From NCBI RefSeq assembly GCF_000332055.1, contig NZ_ALVZ01000218.1, positions 1 through 64,000 of the forward strand: a stretch of 64,000 nt of DNA. The letters are read 5' to 3'. Positions within the stretch are counted from its first letter, which is position 1; each line of letters begins with the position of its first letter. Below, piece after piece: positions 42,537-53,866 of this stretch. Position numbers and translations under genes: made by a program. Origin of the DNA: Xenococcus sp. PCC 7305. GTDB taxonomy: Bacteria; Cyanobacteriota; Cyanobacteriia; Cyanobacteriales; Xenococcaceae. The notes below the pieces were generated by a model that was not told the DNA's origin, made no database searches, and saw only the letters and a program-made list of their open reading frames with translations.

Positions 42537-44651
42537 TCAATAATCTGATTTCCTACTTTTTAGGAATACTATTTCTCTTTCTACATCGACAGGAATTTTC
42601 AAAATACTAATTAGTCTTTGTCGTACTTTAAAGTTAATATCGTGCATATAACAATGCTTAATAACAATCTGCTTTAGCATACGTATGAAAATATAATTTT
42701 TTATATATTTACGATACAATTTTGAAATATTATCTACATCCAAATCTTTCTTGAATTGAAGATCTATTATTAGCTTGATTAAGTAAGCTGCAGGAGTATT
42801 AATATTTTTAGTGACTTTACTATAAATATCTTCTCCTTTATTAGAACCTAAAGCATGAGCAATCTTAGTAAGTATTGACAAAATCAAATCGTAATTTATA
42901 TCCCAAAAAAAAGTTTCTACAACTTTGACTATCTTAGAATTAGAATACTCAGGATTATTTTCTATAAAATATTCAATTTTTCTAATAGTTTGCTCTCTAG
43001 CATAATCATTGATTTGCATAAAAATGCTTAACAAGCGCAATGATGACATCAAAGATTCTTCATAGATTAATTCTAAAGAATCTCTATCCAAAGACCCCAT
43101 TCTATTTCTGAATATTTGTCCGCATACTTCTGTTGCGCCAAAAACTTGCCGAATGTCATTAAACAACTTAAATTCAGGAGTCGCTTCAATATTTAGTTGT
43201 GGCTCTTCGTCGCTTGAATTATTTTTTTCAATTTCGTCTTTTAGCTCGTCTTCTCTACGACGCTCTTGGCGAGTATCTCGATTCTCTAAGACTAAATCAG
43301 GAATTTGACTGGCAAAACTCTGCAAAAAAGGAAGCGAATTTTTTTCTAGAGTTATTGCTATATTATTTGAGAATAACTCCATGACAGAGTAAAGAATTTC
43401 ATCTAGAATTCGAGGATCTTTAGTATGATGAGTGAGGAATAGAATGATATTTCGTATACCTTCTAAATGTATTTTGCTTATAAGGTACTTGATTTTTTCT
43501 TCTGATTTTATATTTTGGTAAAGATTATCAGCTAAGTTTTTAGCTGCAAAAAAATAAAATGAATATTGATAGCGAAATCGAATTCCTCCTTCCAAGTTGT
43601 TTAATATGTTTGCTTCTGTAAGCTTATTGATTACTATACTCCGATCTACAGATAAATATTTTTGCGAATAATTATCAAAAAAATCATCTAATTCAAGCTC
43701 GCTTAGTGTATATTGTTTACCATCAAGTAAAGTACCAGCAAGCTCGGATAATACATTAAAATATTTTTCTATTTCATCTGGCTTAACTCTGCCTCTTTCA
43801 AGCTGTTGATAAATTAGATATTGATAACAATGACCGTATGAAGTCAACTCAATTTTCTTAGTATTGACAACTTCAAAAGAAGATATAAACATCAAGACAT
43901 ATAAAGGTTTAGCAGGTACTATAGTTGTGCTAACTAAACTATTGACATGACGTTTTAGAGTATCGATACGCTGCCAATAATGATTGTTTTGGTAATCCTC
44001 TTCGGATTCGAGTCCAACCCATTTTTCAATCAATTGCGTTCTTTTAACATTATTTAAAGGTAATAACTTTAATACTTGGTATTCATCTAATTCCTTATAA
44101 TGGGGAATATCATAACGGAATATATCCTCAGCCAGAATAATTATTCTATCAAAATTTTTATCTAGCTTTTTCAAAAGCTCTTTTCTAGCTCTTTCACTTA
44201 TATTTGTGCTTGAAAAGTTATCAACAAAGCAAATTCTCTGAGAATAATTAATAAAATATTTATAAGAAATGTTTTCATAGGTATTAGATACTATTTTGTC
44301 CAAGCACTTATCAAATTCAAAAAATTTAAAACAATTAGCATCAATAATTATTGGTAAATAGTTGTGTCTTAGTGAAAATACAAATAATTGTTTGATTAAT
44401 GCCGTTTTTCCTGATTCTGGTTCGCCTAAAATAACAATTTTTGATTCTAATTCTAGAAATCGTTCGCTATTAATTATTGAATTTACATCCTCTGAGTAGT
44501 TGGATTTCACTTCTAAATCTGGGTATATAAACAGATTATTGAGCTTTAGTTTTTCTACGCGAGGATGGCTAAATTGAATATCTATTTCTTGGATATATTC
44601 ATAATATTTAGCGTGACATCTTGGCTTGATTTCTGAATTTATCTCGCTCAT
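42537..44651 (-). CDS. STAND (NACHT-like) NTPase, probable NLR-type sensor
   Basis: A 704-residue cytosolic protein. A ~70-residue N-terminal part contains SHPRVEKLKLNNLFIYPDLE, a segment I associate with bacterial STAND proteins. Next comes a P-loop NTPase (Walker A GEPESGKT, 76-83; Walker B ICFVDNF, about 140-146; a sensor-like RIIILAEDIF) and a winged-helix region ending near residue 370. From there on the protein is alpha-helical repeat without a named domain, plus a charged insert DTRQERRREDELKDEIEKNN. This is sensor-type architecture: nucleotide switch plus ligand-binding helical array, with no effector domain of its own. The upstream hydrolase, 44 bp away, is the likely effector. AT-rich even for this genome; flanked by transposons. 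Confidence 0.8.
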   Translation of the reverse strand: MSEINSEIKPRCHAKYYEYIQEIDIQFSHPRVEKLKLNNLFIYPDLEVKSNYSEDVNSIINSERFLELESKIVILGEPESGKTALIKQLFVFSLRHNYLPIIIDANCFKFFEFDKCLDKIVSNTYENISYKYFINYSQRICFVDNFSSTNISERARKELLKKLDKNFDRIIILAEDIFRYDIPHYKELDEYQVLKLLPLNNVKRTQLIEKWVGLESEEDYQNNHYWQRIDTLKRHVNSLVSTTIVPAKPLYVLMFISSFEVVNTKKIELTSYGHCYQYLIYQQLERGRVKPDEIEKYFNVLSELAGTLLDGKQYTLSELELDDFFDNYSQKYLSVDRSIVINKLTEANILNNLEGGIRFRYQYSFYFFAAKNLADNLYQNIKSEEKIKYLISKIHLEGIRNIILFLTHHTKDPRILDEILYSVMELFSNNIAITLEKNSLPFLQSFASQIPDLVLENRDTRQERRREDELKDEIEKNNSSDEEPQLNIEATPEFKLFNDIRQVFGATEVCGQIFRNRMGSLDRDSLELIYEESLMSSLRLLSIFMQINDYAREQTIRKIEYFIENNPEYSNSKIVKVVETFFWDINYDLILSILTKIAHALGSNKGEDIYSKVTKNINTPAAYLIKLIIDLQFKKDLDVDNISKLYRKYIKNYIFIRMLKQIVIKHCYMHDINFKVRQRLISILKIPVDVEREIVFLKSRKSDY

Positions 44652-44695
44652 TGAAATAATATTGTTATCAATTTTATTTTGCTGCTGATTTTCAG

Positions 44696-45589
44696 TTAAC
44701 TCTTTTTTTTTAAGTCAGTCGCCTCTAAATGATGCTGGGAATTCAAAAAATGACTTTCTAAAGTTGGTAATAATATTCCTCGCTCTGTATTGTTGTTAAT
44801 CTCGAAATTCTTTTGAATAAATTTTCTTACTGATAAGTAGGGCCGATCTTCTCTTGCAGTTGGTTTTGCAATATCAATATGATCTTTATTTAATGGTATA
44901 GGAGTAACGCCAGAAATTCCTGGGTTTGCACTATCTTTATCAACTACAATTAGTTCTAATGGTATCTGCTTTACTTTTCTGGTTGGTAGTGATTCACAAA
45001 AAGCTTTAATTGGAATTTGCGATAATTGCTCTTGATTACGATATACTTCGTTTAGCTCTCTCAAACGAGAATTATGTGCTTCTAACTCCTTTACATTAAT
45101 GCTACTTCCCAAAATGCATTTAATGTACTTAGACCACGTTGCTAAATTTGAACCCATATGAGGAGTAGATAAATAGATTATTCCTCTAGTAGACTTTAAA
45201 ATTCTTTTCCAAGATTCATTTCCAAAGTCATTGCTATGCCTTAAAATTTGCTTAACGACTAATCCTCCCATACTATGAGCAATGAAAATAATCGGTCGGT
45301 CGCCAATTTCATGATCTTCTAATAAAGCAACAATATTAGTAGCTAAATCTACTAAGGGCATTCCATTTTCACGACCAAAAGGCTTGGCGAGATACGATAC
45401 TGTCCAAATTCCAACTGATTTAATATCTTGACCTAGCCATTGCAACCAAGAATTTTGAGATTCCTCTTTACCTTGAGGATGCCAAGTAGAAAAAGCATTA
45501 CCACCTAAACCATGAATAAAAACTACATCTCCATAGCGAAATTCATTATTAGTTCCCTCAAGTGGATGTAATTTATTCGTAATATTCAT
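44696..45589 (-). CDS. SERAC1/SesB-like alpha/beta hydrolase, putative effector
   Basis: 297 residues. Oxyanion-hole motif FIHGLGG near 24-30; nucleophile elbow AHSMGG with Ser106; GIIYLSTPHMGSNLA, typical of lipase-like PGAP1/SERAC1 proteins; probable Asp in VVDKDSAN and His in NKDHIDIAKP. No signal peptide or membrane span, so it acts inside the cell. In fungi and bacteria this hydrolase type is a recurrent effector attached to NLR/STAND proteins. Here it is the first gene of a two-gene unit with a free-standing STAND NTPase. Lipid or ester hydrolysis on activation is inferred. ATG at 45589. Confidence 0.85.
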   Translation of the reverse strand: MNITNKLHPLEGTNNEFRYGDVVFIHGLGGNAFSTWHPQGKEESQNSWLQWLGQDIKSVGIWTVSYLAKPFGRENGMPLVDLATNIVALLEDHEIGDRPIIFIAHSMGGLVVKQILRHSNDFGNESWKRILKSTRGIIYLSTPHMGSNLATWSKYIKCILGSSINVKELEAHNSRLRELNEVYRNQEQLSQIPIKAFCESLPTRKVKQIPLELIVVDKDSANPGISGVTPIPLNKDHIDIAKPTAREDRPYLSVRKFIQKNFEINNNTERGILLPTLESHFLNSQHHLEATDLKKKS

Positions 45590-49863: not shown

Positions 49864-52800
49864 GTGTCTTCATTGTCTTATCTTTTGAATGTTGAGCAAT
49901 TTCTCAGCCATTGCAGCCAATCTAGCGGACATACCTTTAATGCTTTTACCGAACTGTTAGCCAATTTGCGATCGCCTGAGACGAGAATCAGTACTCGAAA
50001 ATTCTTGTCATCATTGCACCAAGCTTGGTTGAAAAGGGAGCATCAAGAGCAATTTTATTTTTCCTTTGTTACTCAAGCGGTCAAAACGGCTAATGGCGAT
50101 CGCCAAGAATTATTATTACTATTATTTCCGAGTATCTTTGCCCCAGAAGAATGGTCATTTACCTTTTATGAAGGGTTACTCCGTTATCCTGCGGAAGAAT
50201 TTTATGATCGCCTGGTTGTGGAACTCGGTTGTGGCTGTGGTTGGATTACCCTCGCGATCGCCTTACATTCTTTGCCGAAGAAAATTTACGGCGTCGATAT
50301 AAATCCCCGAGCGATTATTTGTTCCCAGTTAAATCTTTATCTCAATGCCCTGGACAAAGAAGGCGAACCAATTCTAGACCAAGAAGAGTTCACTTTATTA
50401 GAGCGAGTTGAATTTGCCGAATCCAATCTACTAGAATATTTTTTCGTCCATCCCAAACCCTTGGATCGCATCATTGGTTGTATTCCCCAAGTGCTAAACC
50501 CTGAACTGGAAGTAATGCGAAATTTAGTGAAACAGGAAGCTAATGACGAATTTCTCCATTCTTTGAGTAATTATTGTGAAAAACAAGGCTATGTGGAGGA
50601 TCAATTTGGGTTAGGGTTATTAGCCAAAGCCGTAGAGCAAACCATCAAACTGCTACGACCGACAGGCAAGATTATCCTCAATTTTGGCGGACGACCGGGA
50701 GCAACGGTTCTCGAACGTTTGTTGACAAGAAGAGGCTTGGAAATTCGCCGGATTTGGGAAACTAGAGTGCGACAAGATCCTGATACCGATATCTCGGGGC
50801 TAGTGGCTATTGAAAAAGCGACCGGGCATCGCTTTGAATTTTTTATGACACCACGGGGCAATCAACCAATTTCTGCGGCGACAGCTCAGGTTTATAGCGA
50901 ACATGGTGGCGAAATTTTTCATTCTGTTGCAGTTTATGAAGGGATTCTAGCCTATCCGAACTGGCTCAAACAGATTTTTGCTGTCCTAGAAAAACCTCAG
51001 TTTCAGCAGGTTAAAAATGCCTTGGATCTGACGGAAAATGATTCTAAGGTAGCAGAAGAGAGATTTTACTGGCTGGCATCTTTGTTTACCTATCTCGATA
51101 ATTGTTCCCATTTCCCCTATGGGCTGATCGAAGGTGATTTTGGATTAAGAGAGAGAATTGTAGCCTATTTCCGTAATTATCATTCCATTCCCTGGAATAA
51201 TAACAATTTAGTAATCACACCATCACGGATCGAGATTATTAATAATTTATTGGCTATTTATGAACCCCAGTTGGTGACGGTGGATAAGAGTTTGCGATCG
51301 CTAATTCCCCACCATTGGCAGGCTAATCACGAATCACAACTGATTGAAACTCCCAGAACAACCAAGCTATTGCGTCAATTAATGGGCCAACTGAAACCAT
51401 CTCTGGTAATTACTGGTTTGACTCCATTTGAGATGCTTACCGAAGAGCCTTTGGCGTCTTTGGTTGAAATGGCAGAAAAGATCGGAGCTTTGCTAGTAGT
51501 AGATATTTCCGATAATTTAAACCTTTCGAGTCATCCAGCTAATAATGGGCTGTTTGAATATTTAGCAAGTAGAACATTACCAAGCAATGTAATTTTACTG
51601 GCAGATTTGATCAAGAACCGCTTGTACCCTGACATTTCGCTCTGTATCGGGGTTACCAGCCATGGTGAGCTGAGGCAAGATTTGATGAGAGCAGCGGAAC
51701 TAACCTATAGTCGCTGTTCCTGGATTGCCCAATTTTTCTATCAACAACTTCTCGAACAATTACTATATTTTCAGACTCCCAGATTTGGACAAACTACTAT
51801 TGAGGTGACTGAACCAGCTAATGCGGCTGATTTTTGCCGATTATCGCGATCGCCTGCGGTGACTCAAGCCTTTAAGCATCCTGCAATTCAAGAAAGTGAA
51901 TTACCTTTTACCGCCGCAACAATTCGGCTTGATAATGCCGATAACTGTCTAGCAAGTCCTGTAGTATTGAAAGAGGCGATCGCAGAAGCCTTTGCTCGCC
52001 AAGAAATTACCAAAGAGGACACAGCAATTGACATTCCTTTGGCTTCTGTGTTTGCCCAAAGATATCAAATCAAATTTTTGGATCAAAATCATTTGCTCTG
52101 TGGTGCAGGGGTCTCATCCCTTTTTACGGCGATCATAGAGAAATGTCGTCAAACTCAAGGTACTTTTATCTTTCCCCAAGGAGCCTATGGTGTTTTTCGC
52201 GCTGCATTAGATTTCCAGGGAGTCCCGGTTAAAACCATAACAGGTCGAGAATCAGAAAATTTCAAAATTAATCTAGAGATTTTAGAAAAAACTTTGCAAA
52301 GCACCAAGCAACCTTGGTTGTATCTCAATGCGCCTTTGGCTAATCCTACAGGCACTTACTATTCTTCAGCAGAATTACAGGCAATTATTGAGTTGGCTGA
52401 TCAATATGATACTTGGGTCGTGTTGGATCTTATTTTCTCTGGTTTAGAATTTGCGGCGGCGAAAACGGCGATCGACTTATCTTGGTTACAAGAAAGACGC
52501 CAAAGAAGCTCAGGTCCAATTCTTATGGGCGGAATTTCCAAAGAATTTGCGGCGGCAGGACTACGTTTTGGTTATTTATATTCTCCTGATATGGCGATCG
52601 TTAAGCAAATTAAGGAATTAATGCGCACTAAACTTCCGCAAAGCACTATGTATGCAATGGTAAGATTTTATGAAAAACTGGCCAGTAGAGATGCGGGCTT
52701 ACAGTTGCATCTAGAAAACCAGCGCAGATATTTGCAACAACGGGCCCAATTATTAACTACTACTCTCCAGGAATCTGGTTGGACAGTGATTTTTCCTGAA

Positions 52801-53061
52801 GGGGGATTGTTTCTAGTCGCCAAACCCTCAGCTTTTCTTGGCAAAACTTTATCTTATGAGGAGGATGGCAAGCAATACAAAACTGTAATTGATGGAGATA
52901 CCATTACCAGGGTTTTATTTTCTAAAGTTGGATTAAATATTAATAGTGCAACCTGGACCAATCTGCCCAACTATTGTCGCTTCGTTTTATCTGGCTCGGA
53001 AACCGAATTTCAAGGGGCATTGCCAAGAATCAGAGAATTTTATCAAAAATTTGCTCACTAA
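49864..53061 (+). CDS. Plant-type methionine S-methyltransferase (S-methylmethionine synthase)
   Basis: 1065 residues with the two-part layout of plant MMT. The N-terminal SAM methyltransferase (to ~330) has FPSIFAPEEWSFTFYEGL, VELGCGCGWIT (119-129), YGVDINPRAI, DRIIGCIPQVLNP, HSLSNYC, VEDQFGLGL and the DTDIS-LV-IEK stretch, all nearly as I recall them in Arabidopsis MMT. The C-terminal half is aminotransferase-like: NAPLANPTGTYY (823-834), VVLDLIFSG and GGISKEFAAAGLRFGY with Lys893 at the PLP position. A middle region (about 400-650) also resembles a degenerate aminotransferase. Product: S-methylmethionine from Met and SAM, a precursor of DMSP in plants. GTG start with AAGGT upstream. Followed 19 bp later by a sulfotransferase-like gene. 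Confidence 0.85.
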   Translation: MSSLSYLLNVEQFLSHCSQSSGHTFNAFTELLANLRSPETRISTRKFLSSLHQAWLKREHQEQFYFSFVTQAVKTANGDRQELLLLLFPSIFAPEEWSFTFYEGLLRYPAEEFYDRLVVELGCGCGWITLAIALHSLPKKIYGVDINPRAIICSQLNLYLNALDKEGEPILDQEEFTLLERVEFAESNLLEYFFVHPKPLDRIIGCIPQVLNPELEVMRNLVKQEANDEFLHSLSNYCEKQGYVEDQFGLGLLAKAVEQTIKLLRPTGKIILNFGGRPGATVLERLLTRRGLEIRRIWETRVRQDPDTDISGLVAIEKATGHRFEFFMTPRGNQPISAATAQVYSEHGGEIFHSVAVYEGILAYPNWLKQIFAVLEKPQFQQVKNALDLTENDSKVAEERFYWLASLFTYLDNCSHFPYGLIEGDFGLRERIVAYFRNYHSIPWNNNNLVITPSRIEIINNLLAIYEPQLVTVDKSLRSLIPHHWQANHESQLIETPRTTKLLRQLMGQLKPSLVITGLTPFEMLTEEPLASLVEMAEKIGALLVVDISDNLNLSSHPANNGLFEYLASRTLPSNVILLADLIKNRLYPDISLCIGVTSHGELRQDLMRAAELTYSRCSWIAQFFYQQLLEQLLYFQTPRFGQTTIEVTEPANAADFCRLSRSPAVTQAFKHPAIQESELPFTAATIRLDNADNCLASPVVLKEAIAEAFARQEITKEDTAIDIPLASVFAQRYQIKFLDQNHLLCGAGVSSLFTAIIEKCRQTQGTFIFPQGAYGVFRAALDFQGVPVKTITGRESENFKINLEILEKTLQSTKQPWLYLNAPLANPTGTYYSSAELQAIIELADQYDTWVVLDLIFSGLEFAAAKTAIDLSWLQERRQRSSGPILMGGISKEFAAAGLRFGYLYSPDMAIVKQIKELMRTKLPQSTMYAMVRFYEKLASRDAGLQLHLENQRRYLQQRAQLLTTTLQESGWTVIFPEGGLFLVAKPSAFLGKTLSYEEDGKQYKTVIDGDTITRVLFSKVGLNINSATWTNLPNYCRFVLSGSETEFQGALPRIREFYQKFAH

Positions 53062-53080
53062 ACCTAACAGGAAAGCAACA

Positions 53081-53866
53081 ATGAACATTGACAACAATTT
53101 AAAAAAAAACAACGAAGATTTACAGAAAAAGACACCCTCAATCTTGGCACTCTGGGCGGTGCCTCGCTCTGTCTCCACAGCTTTTGTCCGCATGATGATA
53201 GAAAGAGATGATTTTCATGTTTTTAATTCATCCTTCTCGGTTTATTATTATTTCAGTCACGACCGTGTTTTTGACCGTTATGGGGTAGAAGCAGATGATT
53301 CTTATGATTATCAAGCAGTACTCTCTTCCTTGGAAAATACTTCTACCAAAAAACCTCTTTTTTTAAAAGATATAGCTTATTACGTCAAGGAATGTATGAG
53401 CAAGGAATTTCTTAGTCATTTTCGTAATACCTTTATCATTCGAGATCCTAAATATGCACTGCCTTCGCTTTACAAAATAATGCCTGATTTTACTTTAGAA
53501 GAAACAGGATATGAACAGCAATATAGAATGTTGCAAATGGTACGAGAAAGCACGGGAAAAGTTCCTGTTGTTATTGATGGCAGCGAATTGAGGGCAAATC
53601 CAGAGGCGGTGGTGAAAGCTTATTGCCAGGCTGTCGATATTCCCTTTATCCCTCAGGCACTCAAATGGCAGCCCGGAAAAAAGTTTGCTCAAATGGAATT
53701 GTGGAAAGATTGGTACGACAATGTGATGAACAGTTCGAGGTTCTTGCCGTCCCAAGAGAATAAAGATGATGAGATTATCTTAAATAATAAAGTTGTTCAA
53801 GATGCCTATAAACATTGTTTACCTTTTTATCAGGAAATGTCTAAATATCGGATTCAGGTAAAATAA
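53081..53866 (+). CDS. Sulfotransferase-like P-loop protein
   Basis: 261 residues from the ATG at 53081, which has AGGAAAG upstream (an open extension to 52946 overlaps the methyltransferase and is rejected). ILALWAVPRSVSTAFVRMM gives the 5'-phosphosulfate-binding loop of PAPS sulfotransferases; FIIRDPKYALPSLY supplies the 3'-phosphate Arg/Ser motif; SELRANPEAVVKAYCQAVDIPF is the usual C-terminal helix. It would transfer sulfate from PAPS to an alcohol or amine. The tight 19-bp spacing to the methionine methyltransferase suggests a shared pathway, perhaps a sulfonium-sulfate metabolite, but the substrate is unknown. Confidence 0.82.
   Translation: MNIDNNLKKNNEDLQKKTPSILALWAVPRSVSTAFVRMMIERDDFHVFNSSFSVYYYFSHDRVFDRYGVEADDSYDYQAVLSSLENTSTKKPLFLKDIAYYVKECMSKEFLSHFRNTFIIRDPKYALPSLYKIMPDFTLEETGYEQQYRMLQMVRESTGKVPVVIDGSELRANPEAVVKAYCQAVDIPFIPQALKWQPGKKFAQMELWKDWYDNVMNSSRFLPSQENKDDEIILNNKVVQDAYKHCLPFYQEMSKYRIQVK

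Follow-up and report, generated by a model that had tools for sequence, protein, structure and literature searches.

On its sequence, a 1,065-residue protein of the rock-dwelling cyanobacterium Xenococcus sp. PCC 7305 is a plant-type (Group III) methionine S-methyltransferase (MMT), and its C-terminal half carries a complete set of pyridoxal phosphate (PLP) site residues that looks intact in bacterial MMTs and decayed in their plant counterparts. We propose, with a probability of roughly 0.55, that bacterial Group III MMTs make S-methylmethionine (SMM) and then perform PLP chemistry, likely on the SMM produced by the same chain. If the PLP domain does use SMM, this one enzyme would lead a phototroph from methionine to dimethyl sulfide (DMS) or to a precursor of dimethylsulfoniopropionate (DMSP), a route that has not been described before. 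The role of the large aminotransferase-like half of MMT becomes a testable question.

The MMT gene encodes a three-part protein

The gene lies in a 64,000-nucleotide stretch of genomic DNA, hereafter the window, and its features are listed in Table 1. The full-length frame and three-part layout described in the initial annotation are borne out, and the size of the protein and its aminotransferase-like C-terminus fit the roughly 115 kDa and domain make-up of Group III MMTs. The sequence AAGG precedes the GTG start codon by 9 nucleotides, and the homologues in L007 and L009 also begin with GTG. Uninterrupted full-length homologues occur in three related genomes (63-81% identity) and in other bacterial phyla (36-41% identity), and all three domains are under purifying selection, with dN/dS values of 0.075, 0.124 and 0.139 in the comparison of the window with its congener. 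An open reading frame with such uninterrupted, full-length homologues is far beyond chance.

Table 1. Features of the MMT locus in the window.
Feature	Coordinates	Strand	Basis
MMT, Group III (plant-type), 1065 aa, GTG start	49864..53061	+	ORF, Pfam, homologues, MmtN profile
N-terminal SAM-dependent methyltransferase domain, residues 1-365	49864..50958	+	MmtN profile match
Middle domain, residues 366-655, degenerate and related to the large domain of aminotransferases	50959..51828	+	HHalign
C-terminal domain of class I aminotransferase fold, residues 656-1065, PLP site intact	51829..53058	+	PF00155, AlphaFold2 model
Lys893 codon, predicted PLP Schiff-base lysine (GGISKEFAAAGLRFG)	52540..52542	+	alignment with the PLP lysine of aminotransferases
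Sulfotransferase (PF19798), 261 aa, ATG at 53081; not counted as part of the MMT system	53081..53866	+	Pfam

The middle region, which had been called degenerate, has no Pfam match, and HHalign relates it to the C-terminal domain of the same protein (probability 82%, E 1.1e-5) in an alignment that pairs K584 with K893. Residue 584 occupies the position of the PLP lysine and varies among K, R, H and Y across the MMT family. PLP binding by this domain was considered because the first 10 sequences compared all have Lys584, and was rejected because members from the phylum of Pseudobacteriovorax have R, H or Y there. The middle domain is an aminotransferase-like module that has degenerated and probably has a structural role.

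The methyltransferase domain is predicted to produce SMM

Pfam methyltransferase motifs map to residues 115-182 of the protein, and a GxGxG motif is found at residues 122-126 (G122-G124-G126). When the profile of the methyltransferase domain was compared with all PDB chains, the top match was MmtN (7vvv; E 4.1e-18, next-best chain E 1.6e-7), a proven methionine S-methyltransferase (PMC9135737), with residues 95-361 of MMT aligned to residues 20-293 of MmtN. Asp69, Cys121, Glu127, Arg132 and Glu250 of MmtN participate in SAM or methionine binding (PMC9135737). The SAM-binding residues Asp69 and Cys121 correspond to D145 and C206, which are invariant across all bacterial members. Among the residues that bind methionine, Glu127 aligns with N212, Arg132 aligns with a variable residue, and Glu250 falls in an unaligned insertion of MMT; single substitutions leave MmtN with more than 50% of its activity. 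N212 is also present in plant MMT (provisional sequences), and the mismatch at Glu127 therefore does not discriminate.

The plant side of this comparison consists of two provisional MMT sequences. Against the provisional Arabidopsis sequence, the window protein is co-linear over its full length (37-38% identity), and the methyltransferase domain alone shows about 50% identity to plant MMT. Of the 78 methyltransferase columns that are invariant across bacterial MMTs, 74-75 are kept in the provisional plant sequences. SMM is very probably the product of the window protein because of its full-length co-linearity with MMTs and its MmtN-related methyltransferase domain. It is improbable that the domain acts on another thioether or amino acid and that the MMT-like layout misleads; two methionine-contacting residues of MmtN are indeed not conserved at the aligned positions, but the invariants in common with plant MMT (provisional sequences), an SMM synthase, argue against this reading, as does the standing of MmtN as the nearest solved relative by far.

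Other methyltransferases of sulfonium metabolism differ in architecture. MmtN (Groups I and II) has a homologous methyltransferase domain with common SAM-binding residues, but is only about 305 residues long and lacks aminotransferase domains. BurB likewise methylates methionine to SMM (PMC12542666), but it is a SET-domain enzyme of an unrelated fold class. DsyGD, a bifunctional DMSP synthase that certain filamentous cyanobacteria possess (PMC11306096), also fuses an S-methyltransferase to a second catalytic domain, but its substrate is MTHB rather than methionine, its second domain is a decarboxylase, and it belongs to another pathway.

The C-terminal domain of bacterial MMTs retains a PLP site

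The aminotransferase-like character ascribed to the C-terminal half was upheld by its PF00155 match (115 bits) and by structural modeling. An AlphaFold2 model built from 23 diverse sequences reached a pLDDT of 86.5 and a pTM of 0.86 (an input of four close sequences gave a pLDDT of 42), and superimposes on the solved aminotransferase structure 6f77 with a Z score of 42.0 and an rmsd of 2.6 over 384 residues. The model also resembles ACS7 (Z 38.9) and PatB-type C-S lyases (Z about 37). The domain has the fold of ACC synthase, PatB C-S lyases and GntC, all fold-type I PLP enzymes, although these stand alone and the domain is only 14-19% identical to solved ones.

The initial annotation read the layout correctly but overlooked that the PLP site in this domain is intact. 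Among 24 bacterial MMTs drawn from lineages of Cyanobacteria, Acidobacteriota and Bdellovibrionota, K893, R901, Y775, D855 and R1039 are kept in every member and N827 in 23. The Schiff-base lysine, the contacts to the PLP phosphate and ring, the aspartate and the carboxylate arginine (R1039) are accordingly all present. The domain is conserved among cyanobacterial MMTs with a dN/dS of 0.13-0.14. In the provisional plant sequences, K893 is replaced by L or F, Y775 by N and R901 by K or D, and only 23-25 of the 34 bacterial invariants of this domain are kept. Plant MMT shares the length, three-part layout, co-linearity and methyltransferase similarity of the bacterial protein but, in these provisional sequences, no longer has the PLP lysine and further residues of the PLP site.

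This pattern of residues suggests that the C-terminal domains of bacterial MMTs probably catalyze a PLP-dependent reaction, although a PLP-binding domain may also be retained for regulation. As to the type of reaction, nearly all members carry Phe858 where aspartate aminotransferase has Tyr225, unlike ordinary transaminases. The only NCBIfam model that all 23 members match is GntC, a PLP enzyme that expels a gamma leaving group, and GntC is also the top match of the window protein. However, this similarity is weak, at 82.6 bits where the cut-off is 415 and where a generic aminotransferase model scores 75.5 bits, and the reaction type is therefore not decided by it.

Distribution of MMT and origin of the plant gene

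Used as a lone query against the genome contigs, the window protein gave no matches; an alignment that included a provisional plant sequence reached other phyla. Within the Xenococcaceae-type family, 4 of 27 genomes carry MMT, and no cyanobacterium sampled outside this family does. Searches of plasmid records returned only generic aminotransferases, and searches of viral contigs returned no MMT. The window protein is co-linear with 20 bacterial MMTs from outside the Cyanobacteria. The initial annotation, which set the protein against the short MmtN, implied that its layout was new to bacteria, but plant-like dual-domain MMTs are already known from Deltaproteobacteria and Oligoflexia (PMC9135737). 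The window protein resembles these in layout, sequence (36-41% identity), intact PLP residues and the lack of a group-wide partner gene, and differs in being cyanobacterial and in falling within a cyanobacterial clade of its own, which has full support in the tree. The novelty is a new phylum for the known bacterial Group III MMT, namely Cyanobacteria (one family), along with Acidobacteriota, and it widens the range of plant-type MMT beyond the plants, Deltaproteobacteria and Oligoflexia named in the literature consulted.

The phylogeny was also relevant to the suggestion that the protein is an ancestor or transfer relative of the plant gene. Its full-length grouping with MMTs stood, whereas a single clade of plants and the cyanobacterium is neither supported nor rejected (p-AU 0.27). 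Joining plants to the L030/L028/L033/L036 group is weakly disfavoured (p-AU 0.037), and joining them to seven L029-like members is not rejected (p-AU 0.10). A bacterial donor of plant MMT is plausible because algae lack MMT, which arose with land plants (PMC6284425); the present tree does not name the donor. It is conceivable, though we hold it only tentatively, that bacterial MMTs are single-chain, two-step enzymes that make SMM and then, at an active PLP site, release DMS by gamma-elimination/replacement or transaminate SMM towards DMSP, and that the protein passed to plants, where its second activity disappeared.

Possible fates of SMM

In the proposed mechanism, the methyltransferase domain would convert methionine and SAM to SMM, and the C-terminal PLP site would then act on SMM from the same chain. 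The chance that SMM is the substrate of the PLP site appears about even. Two reactions can be envisaged. DMS could be lost or replaced at the gamma carbon, yielding DMS together with vinylglycine/2-oxobutyrate or a substituted amino acid, or SMM could be transaminated to 4-dimethylsulfonio-2-oxobutyrate. Gamma-elimination is a tentative first choice, slightly ahead of transamination; taken singly, each is less likely than not.

A simpler explanation is that the protein is an ordinary plant-like SMM synthase whose C-terminal region stabilises the enzyme or senses SAM/SMM, with SMM serving as a methyl store or osmolyte, or being excreted. Plant MMT, a proven SMM synthase, has the same layout (PMC9135737, PMC11464771), and the cyanobacterial gene has no dedicated downstream gene alongside. 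We nevertheless judge this explanation unlikely, as the full PLP catalytic set, beyond the fold alone, persists in all 24 bacterial MMTs, and as the four MMT-containing cyanobacteria have no stand-alone homocysteine S-methyltransferase (HMT). In these genomes, PF02574 matches only long frames of 1067-1200 residues, as in MetH, while six relatives that lack MMT have a PF02574 frame of 313-354 residues. In the SMM cycle of plants, MMT works alongside HMT; the four cyanobacteria lack this partner, and SMM is therefore probably not recycled there in the plant manner.

It is similarly unlikely that the enzyme serves DMSP synthesis, with the PLP site forming 4-dimethylsulfonio-2-oxobutyrate, from which decarboxylation would give DMSP-aldehyde and a subsequent oxidation DMSP. 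The nearest solved folds are aminotransferases, and an 'unusual transamination' of SMM was reportedly proposed by Rhodes et al. in 1997 (cited in PMC11464771) for the DMSP-rich sea daisy. Against this, Phe takes the place of the Tyr225 equivalent, and no conserved decarboxylase or aldehyde dehydrogenase gene lies beside the cyanobacterial MMT. None of the four MMT genomes has an intact gene for a DOX-class copper amine oxidase (PF01179), as in the Spartina-type DMSP pathway; PF01179 is absent from G000, G001 and G012, and the copy in G013 has two internal stops. Gene content does not support DMSP production or a plant SMM cycle. Of four bacteria with Group III MMT that were tested previously, Pseudobacteriovorax antillogorgiicola produced DMSP, which favours the DMSP route, but three did not (PMC9135737). 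DMSP production by P. antillogorgiicola would fit transamination at least equally well.

The adjacent sulfotransferase gene

A sulfotransferase gene was correctly placed directly downstream of MMT on the same strand, at a distance of 19 bp (53062-53080). Its ATG is preceded at 8 nucleotides by AGGA, and its PF19798 match scores 50.6 bits (cut-off 23.2). The short gap and shared strand could point to a common operon for the synthesis of a sulfated sulfonium compound, and in the congener the two genes are again near each other on one strand. However, the congener pair is split by two genes, one of them encoding a PemK-like toxin, and the linkage did not hold up as that of a conserved partner. 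Specifically, a close copy is present only in the window genome and its congener among the four MMT-containing cyanobacteria; the whole genomes of the other two have none, nor do the neighbours that were read beside other bacterial MMTs. Such an operon is highly improbable, and the sulfotransferase lies outside the MMT system, being either unrelated to it or specific to the genus.

A cyanobacterial member of the Group III methionine S-methyltransferases

The initial annotation described a plant-type methionine S-methyltransferase (MMT) with a methyltransferase domain, a degenerate middle region and an aminotransferase-like C-terminal half, a layout that is borne out by Pfam, HHalign and model superposition. 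The gene lies in a genome of 5,929,641 bases (234 contigs). Pfam places a SAM methyltransferase signature at approximately residues 115-182 and Aminotran_1_2 at residues 727-1053 (115 bits), and the middle region (366-655) matches neither a Pfam family nor a PDB sequence. The middle region is probably a decayed copy of an aminotransferase large domain, because HHalign finds it related to these proteins' own C-terminal domain (probability 82%, E 1.1e-5), with K584 aligned to K893. In an AlphaFold2 model built from 23 sequences (pLDDT 86.5, pTM 0.86), residues 660-1064 superimpose on prephenate and aspartate aminotransferases (Z 40-42), ACC synthase (Z 38.9) and PatB-type C-S lyases (Z ~37). All three domains have low dN/dS. 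The MMT of the congener, Xenococcus sp. MO_188.B8, contains two in-frame insertions; its 33-residue insertion sits in the linker after the methyltransferase domain and matches a dispersed repeat, of which that genome has dozens of copies and the window genome some.

Features discussed in the text
Feature	Location	Strand	Remarks
MMT ORF, 1065 aa	49864-53061	+	GTG start; ORF reading
Sulfotransferase ORF, 261 aa	53081-53866	+	19 bp after MMT ORF; Sulfotransfer_5 match
DNADN stretch, MMT residues 690-694	51931-51945
P-loop NTPase-like (704 aa) and alpha/beta-hydrolase-like (297 aa) genes	42537-45589	-	adjacent
Insertion in congener MMT	L009:10019-10117	-	in frame
Insertion in congener MMT	L009:11048-11074	-	in frame
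Copper amine oxidase gene	G013:C1:4180145-4181338		two internal stop codons

Protein searches found MMT in the window genome and, of the 60 genomes nearest to it, in three (the congener, G012 and G013); an evenly drawn set of 386 genomes of the phylum added no further carrier, and a profile search returned the same four among 391 genomes of the order. One other member of the family is named 'uncultured Xenococcaceae cyanobacterium'. Outside the cyanobacteria, MMT occurs in Thermoanaerobaculia (Acidobacteriota), Bdellovibrionota, Bacteriovoracaceae, Pseudobacteriovorax, an Oligoflexia MAG and Halobacteriovoraceae, including 13 of 58 genomes of the Pseudobacteriovorax phylum, 6 of 291 in one Bdellovibrionota phylum and 1 of 297 Acidobacteriota. 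Group III MMTs were earlier known in Deltaproteobacteria and Oligoflexia, with a function 'difficult to predict' (PMC9135737). The window gene is a genuine new cyanobacterial member of this known but uncharacterised bacterial enzyme group.

The C-terminal PLP site and its putative substrate

Five residues of the C-terminal domain are identical in 24/24 aligned bacterial MMTs, and from the alignment with solved aminotransferases we take them to be the Schiff-base lysine (K893), the phosphate-binding arginine (R901), the ring-stacking aromatic residue (Y775), the pyridine-nitrogen aspartate (D855) and the carboxylate-binding arginine (R1039); N827, presumably the O3' asparagine, is kept in all but one. 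The O3' tyrosine position is occupied by Phe858, a Phe in nearly all members. As judged from sequence, this intact PLP site is an unremarked feature of the bacterial group, and the full set of residues is retained across three phylum-level lineages, which speaks for a catalytic C-terminal domain. Position 584 is K, R, H or Y across the family, so the middle domain is not a PLP enzyme. Where the PLP domain begins, the window protein has DNADN in place of the D(Y/H/F)GEN of nearly all bacterial members; this local drift could make its PLP site weaker.

The methyltransferase domain is predicted to convert Met to S-methylmethionine (SMM). Its profile (n=13) matches residues 20-293 of the short bacterial enzyme MmtN (7vvv) with E 4.1e-18, the next chain scoring 1.6e-7. 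In the profile alignment, D145 and C206 take the places of the MmtN SAM ligands Asp69 and Cys121; the Met contacts Glu127 and Arg132 are without equivalent at the aligned positions. MmtN forms SMM via a proximity/desolvation mechanism (PMC9135737). SMM formation by the window MMT is likely.

SMM would be the obvious substrate of the PLP domain, because the same polypeptide would produce it and because it is similar to SAM. SAM is the substrate of ACC synthase, an enzyme that also uses SMM as a substrate and is inactivated by it. The only NCBIfam model matched by all 23 members, with weak scores, is GntC, which expels a gamma leaving group, much as the MMT PLP domain would expel DMS from SMM. 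The main alternative is that the PLP domain transaminates SMM, which fits the one DMSP-producing strain with a Group III MMT, Pseudobacteriovorax antillogorgiicola (PMC9135737).

Comparison with plant MMT

The Arabidopsis and barley probes are approximate sequences, in which single residues may be wrong. The Arabidopsis probe cannot be badly wrong overall, because it helped the search reach genuine bacterial homologues (35-41% identity). Both plant probes align with bacterial MMT end to end (Arabidopsis at 37-38% identity), and both lack the PLP lysine, with L/F at 893. They keep 74-75 of 78 bacterial-invariant columns in the methyltransferase domain, 17-18 of 19 in the middle and 23-25 of 34 in the C-terminal domain; in a leave-one-out control, divergent bacterial members keep 94-100% of the C-terminal invariants, except L016 (79%).

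The tree fully supports the cyanobacterial clade (100/100) but leaves the plant probe loosely placed, at the end of a long branch. A plant-cyanobacteria grouping is not rejected (p-AU 0.27), nor are several alternative placements, so descent of the plant gene from such an ancestor is no more than a possibility.

Pathway context and gene neighbours

In the four MMT cyanobacteria, PF02574 matches solely long frames of the length expected of MetH (1067-1200 aa); an extra stand-alone frame of 313-354 aa is present in six relatives that lack MMT (G002, G003, G009, G011, G016 and G024). Stand-alone homocysteine S-methyltransferase and MMT never co-occur in the Xenococcaceae-type family (0/4 MMT genomes, 6/23 others). 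In the other MMT-bearing genomes, PF02574 falls mostly in frames as long as MetH; G428 has a frame of 359 aa and G430 one of 636 aa. Copper amine oxidase, the DOX class of the Spartina DMSP route (PMC11464771), is absent from three of the four cyanobacteria and broken in the fourth, G013. By family search, which leaves room for analogous enzymes, a complete SMM cycle is thus not visible in them, nor is a complete Spartina route, and the suggested role as a DMSP source is not supported.

The sulfotransferase-like gene reported downstream of MMT is present (Sulfotransfer_5, 50.6 bits against a cut-off of 23.2), but the linkage survey speaks against it as a partner. Among 60 relatives, only the window genome and the congener have close copies; one further genome has a 30% match, and the genomes of MMT-bearing G012 and G013 have none anywhere. 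In the congener, two genes separate the pair, one for a PemK-like toxin and one of 274 aa. Around MMT, the four cyanobacteria have nothing else in common. The pairing is therefore incidental or genus-specific.

Elsewhere in the window, the adjacent P-loop NTPase-like and alpha/beta-hydrolase-like genes recall, by eye, a NACHT-type immune pair. At loci L028, L033 and L036, the gene immediately downstream of MMT is cytidylate-kinase-like (identified in L028). At seven loci of the Pseudobacteriovorax phylum (L029, L031, L032, L034, L035, L037 and L038), an acetyl-CoA-synthetase-like gene (ACAS_N and AMP-binding, identified in L029) starts directly downstream of MMT and might be its functional partner there.
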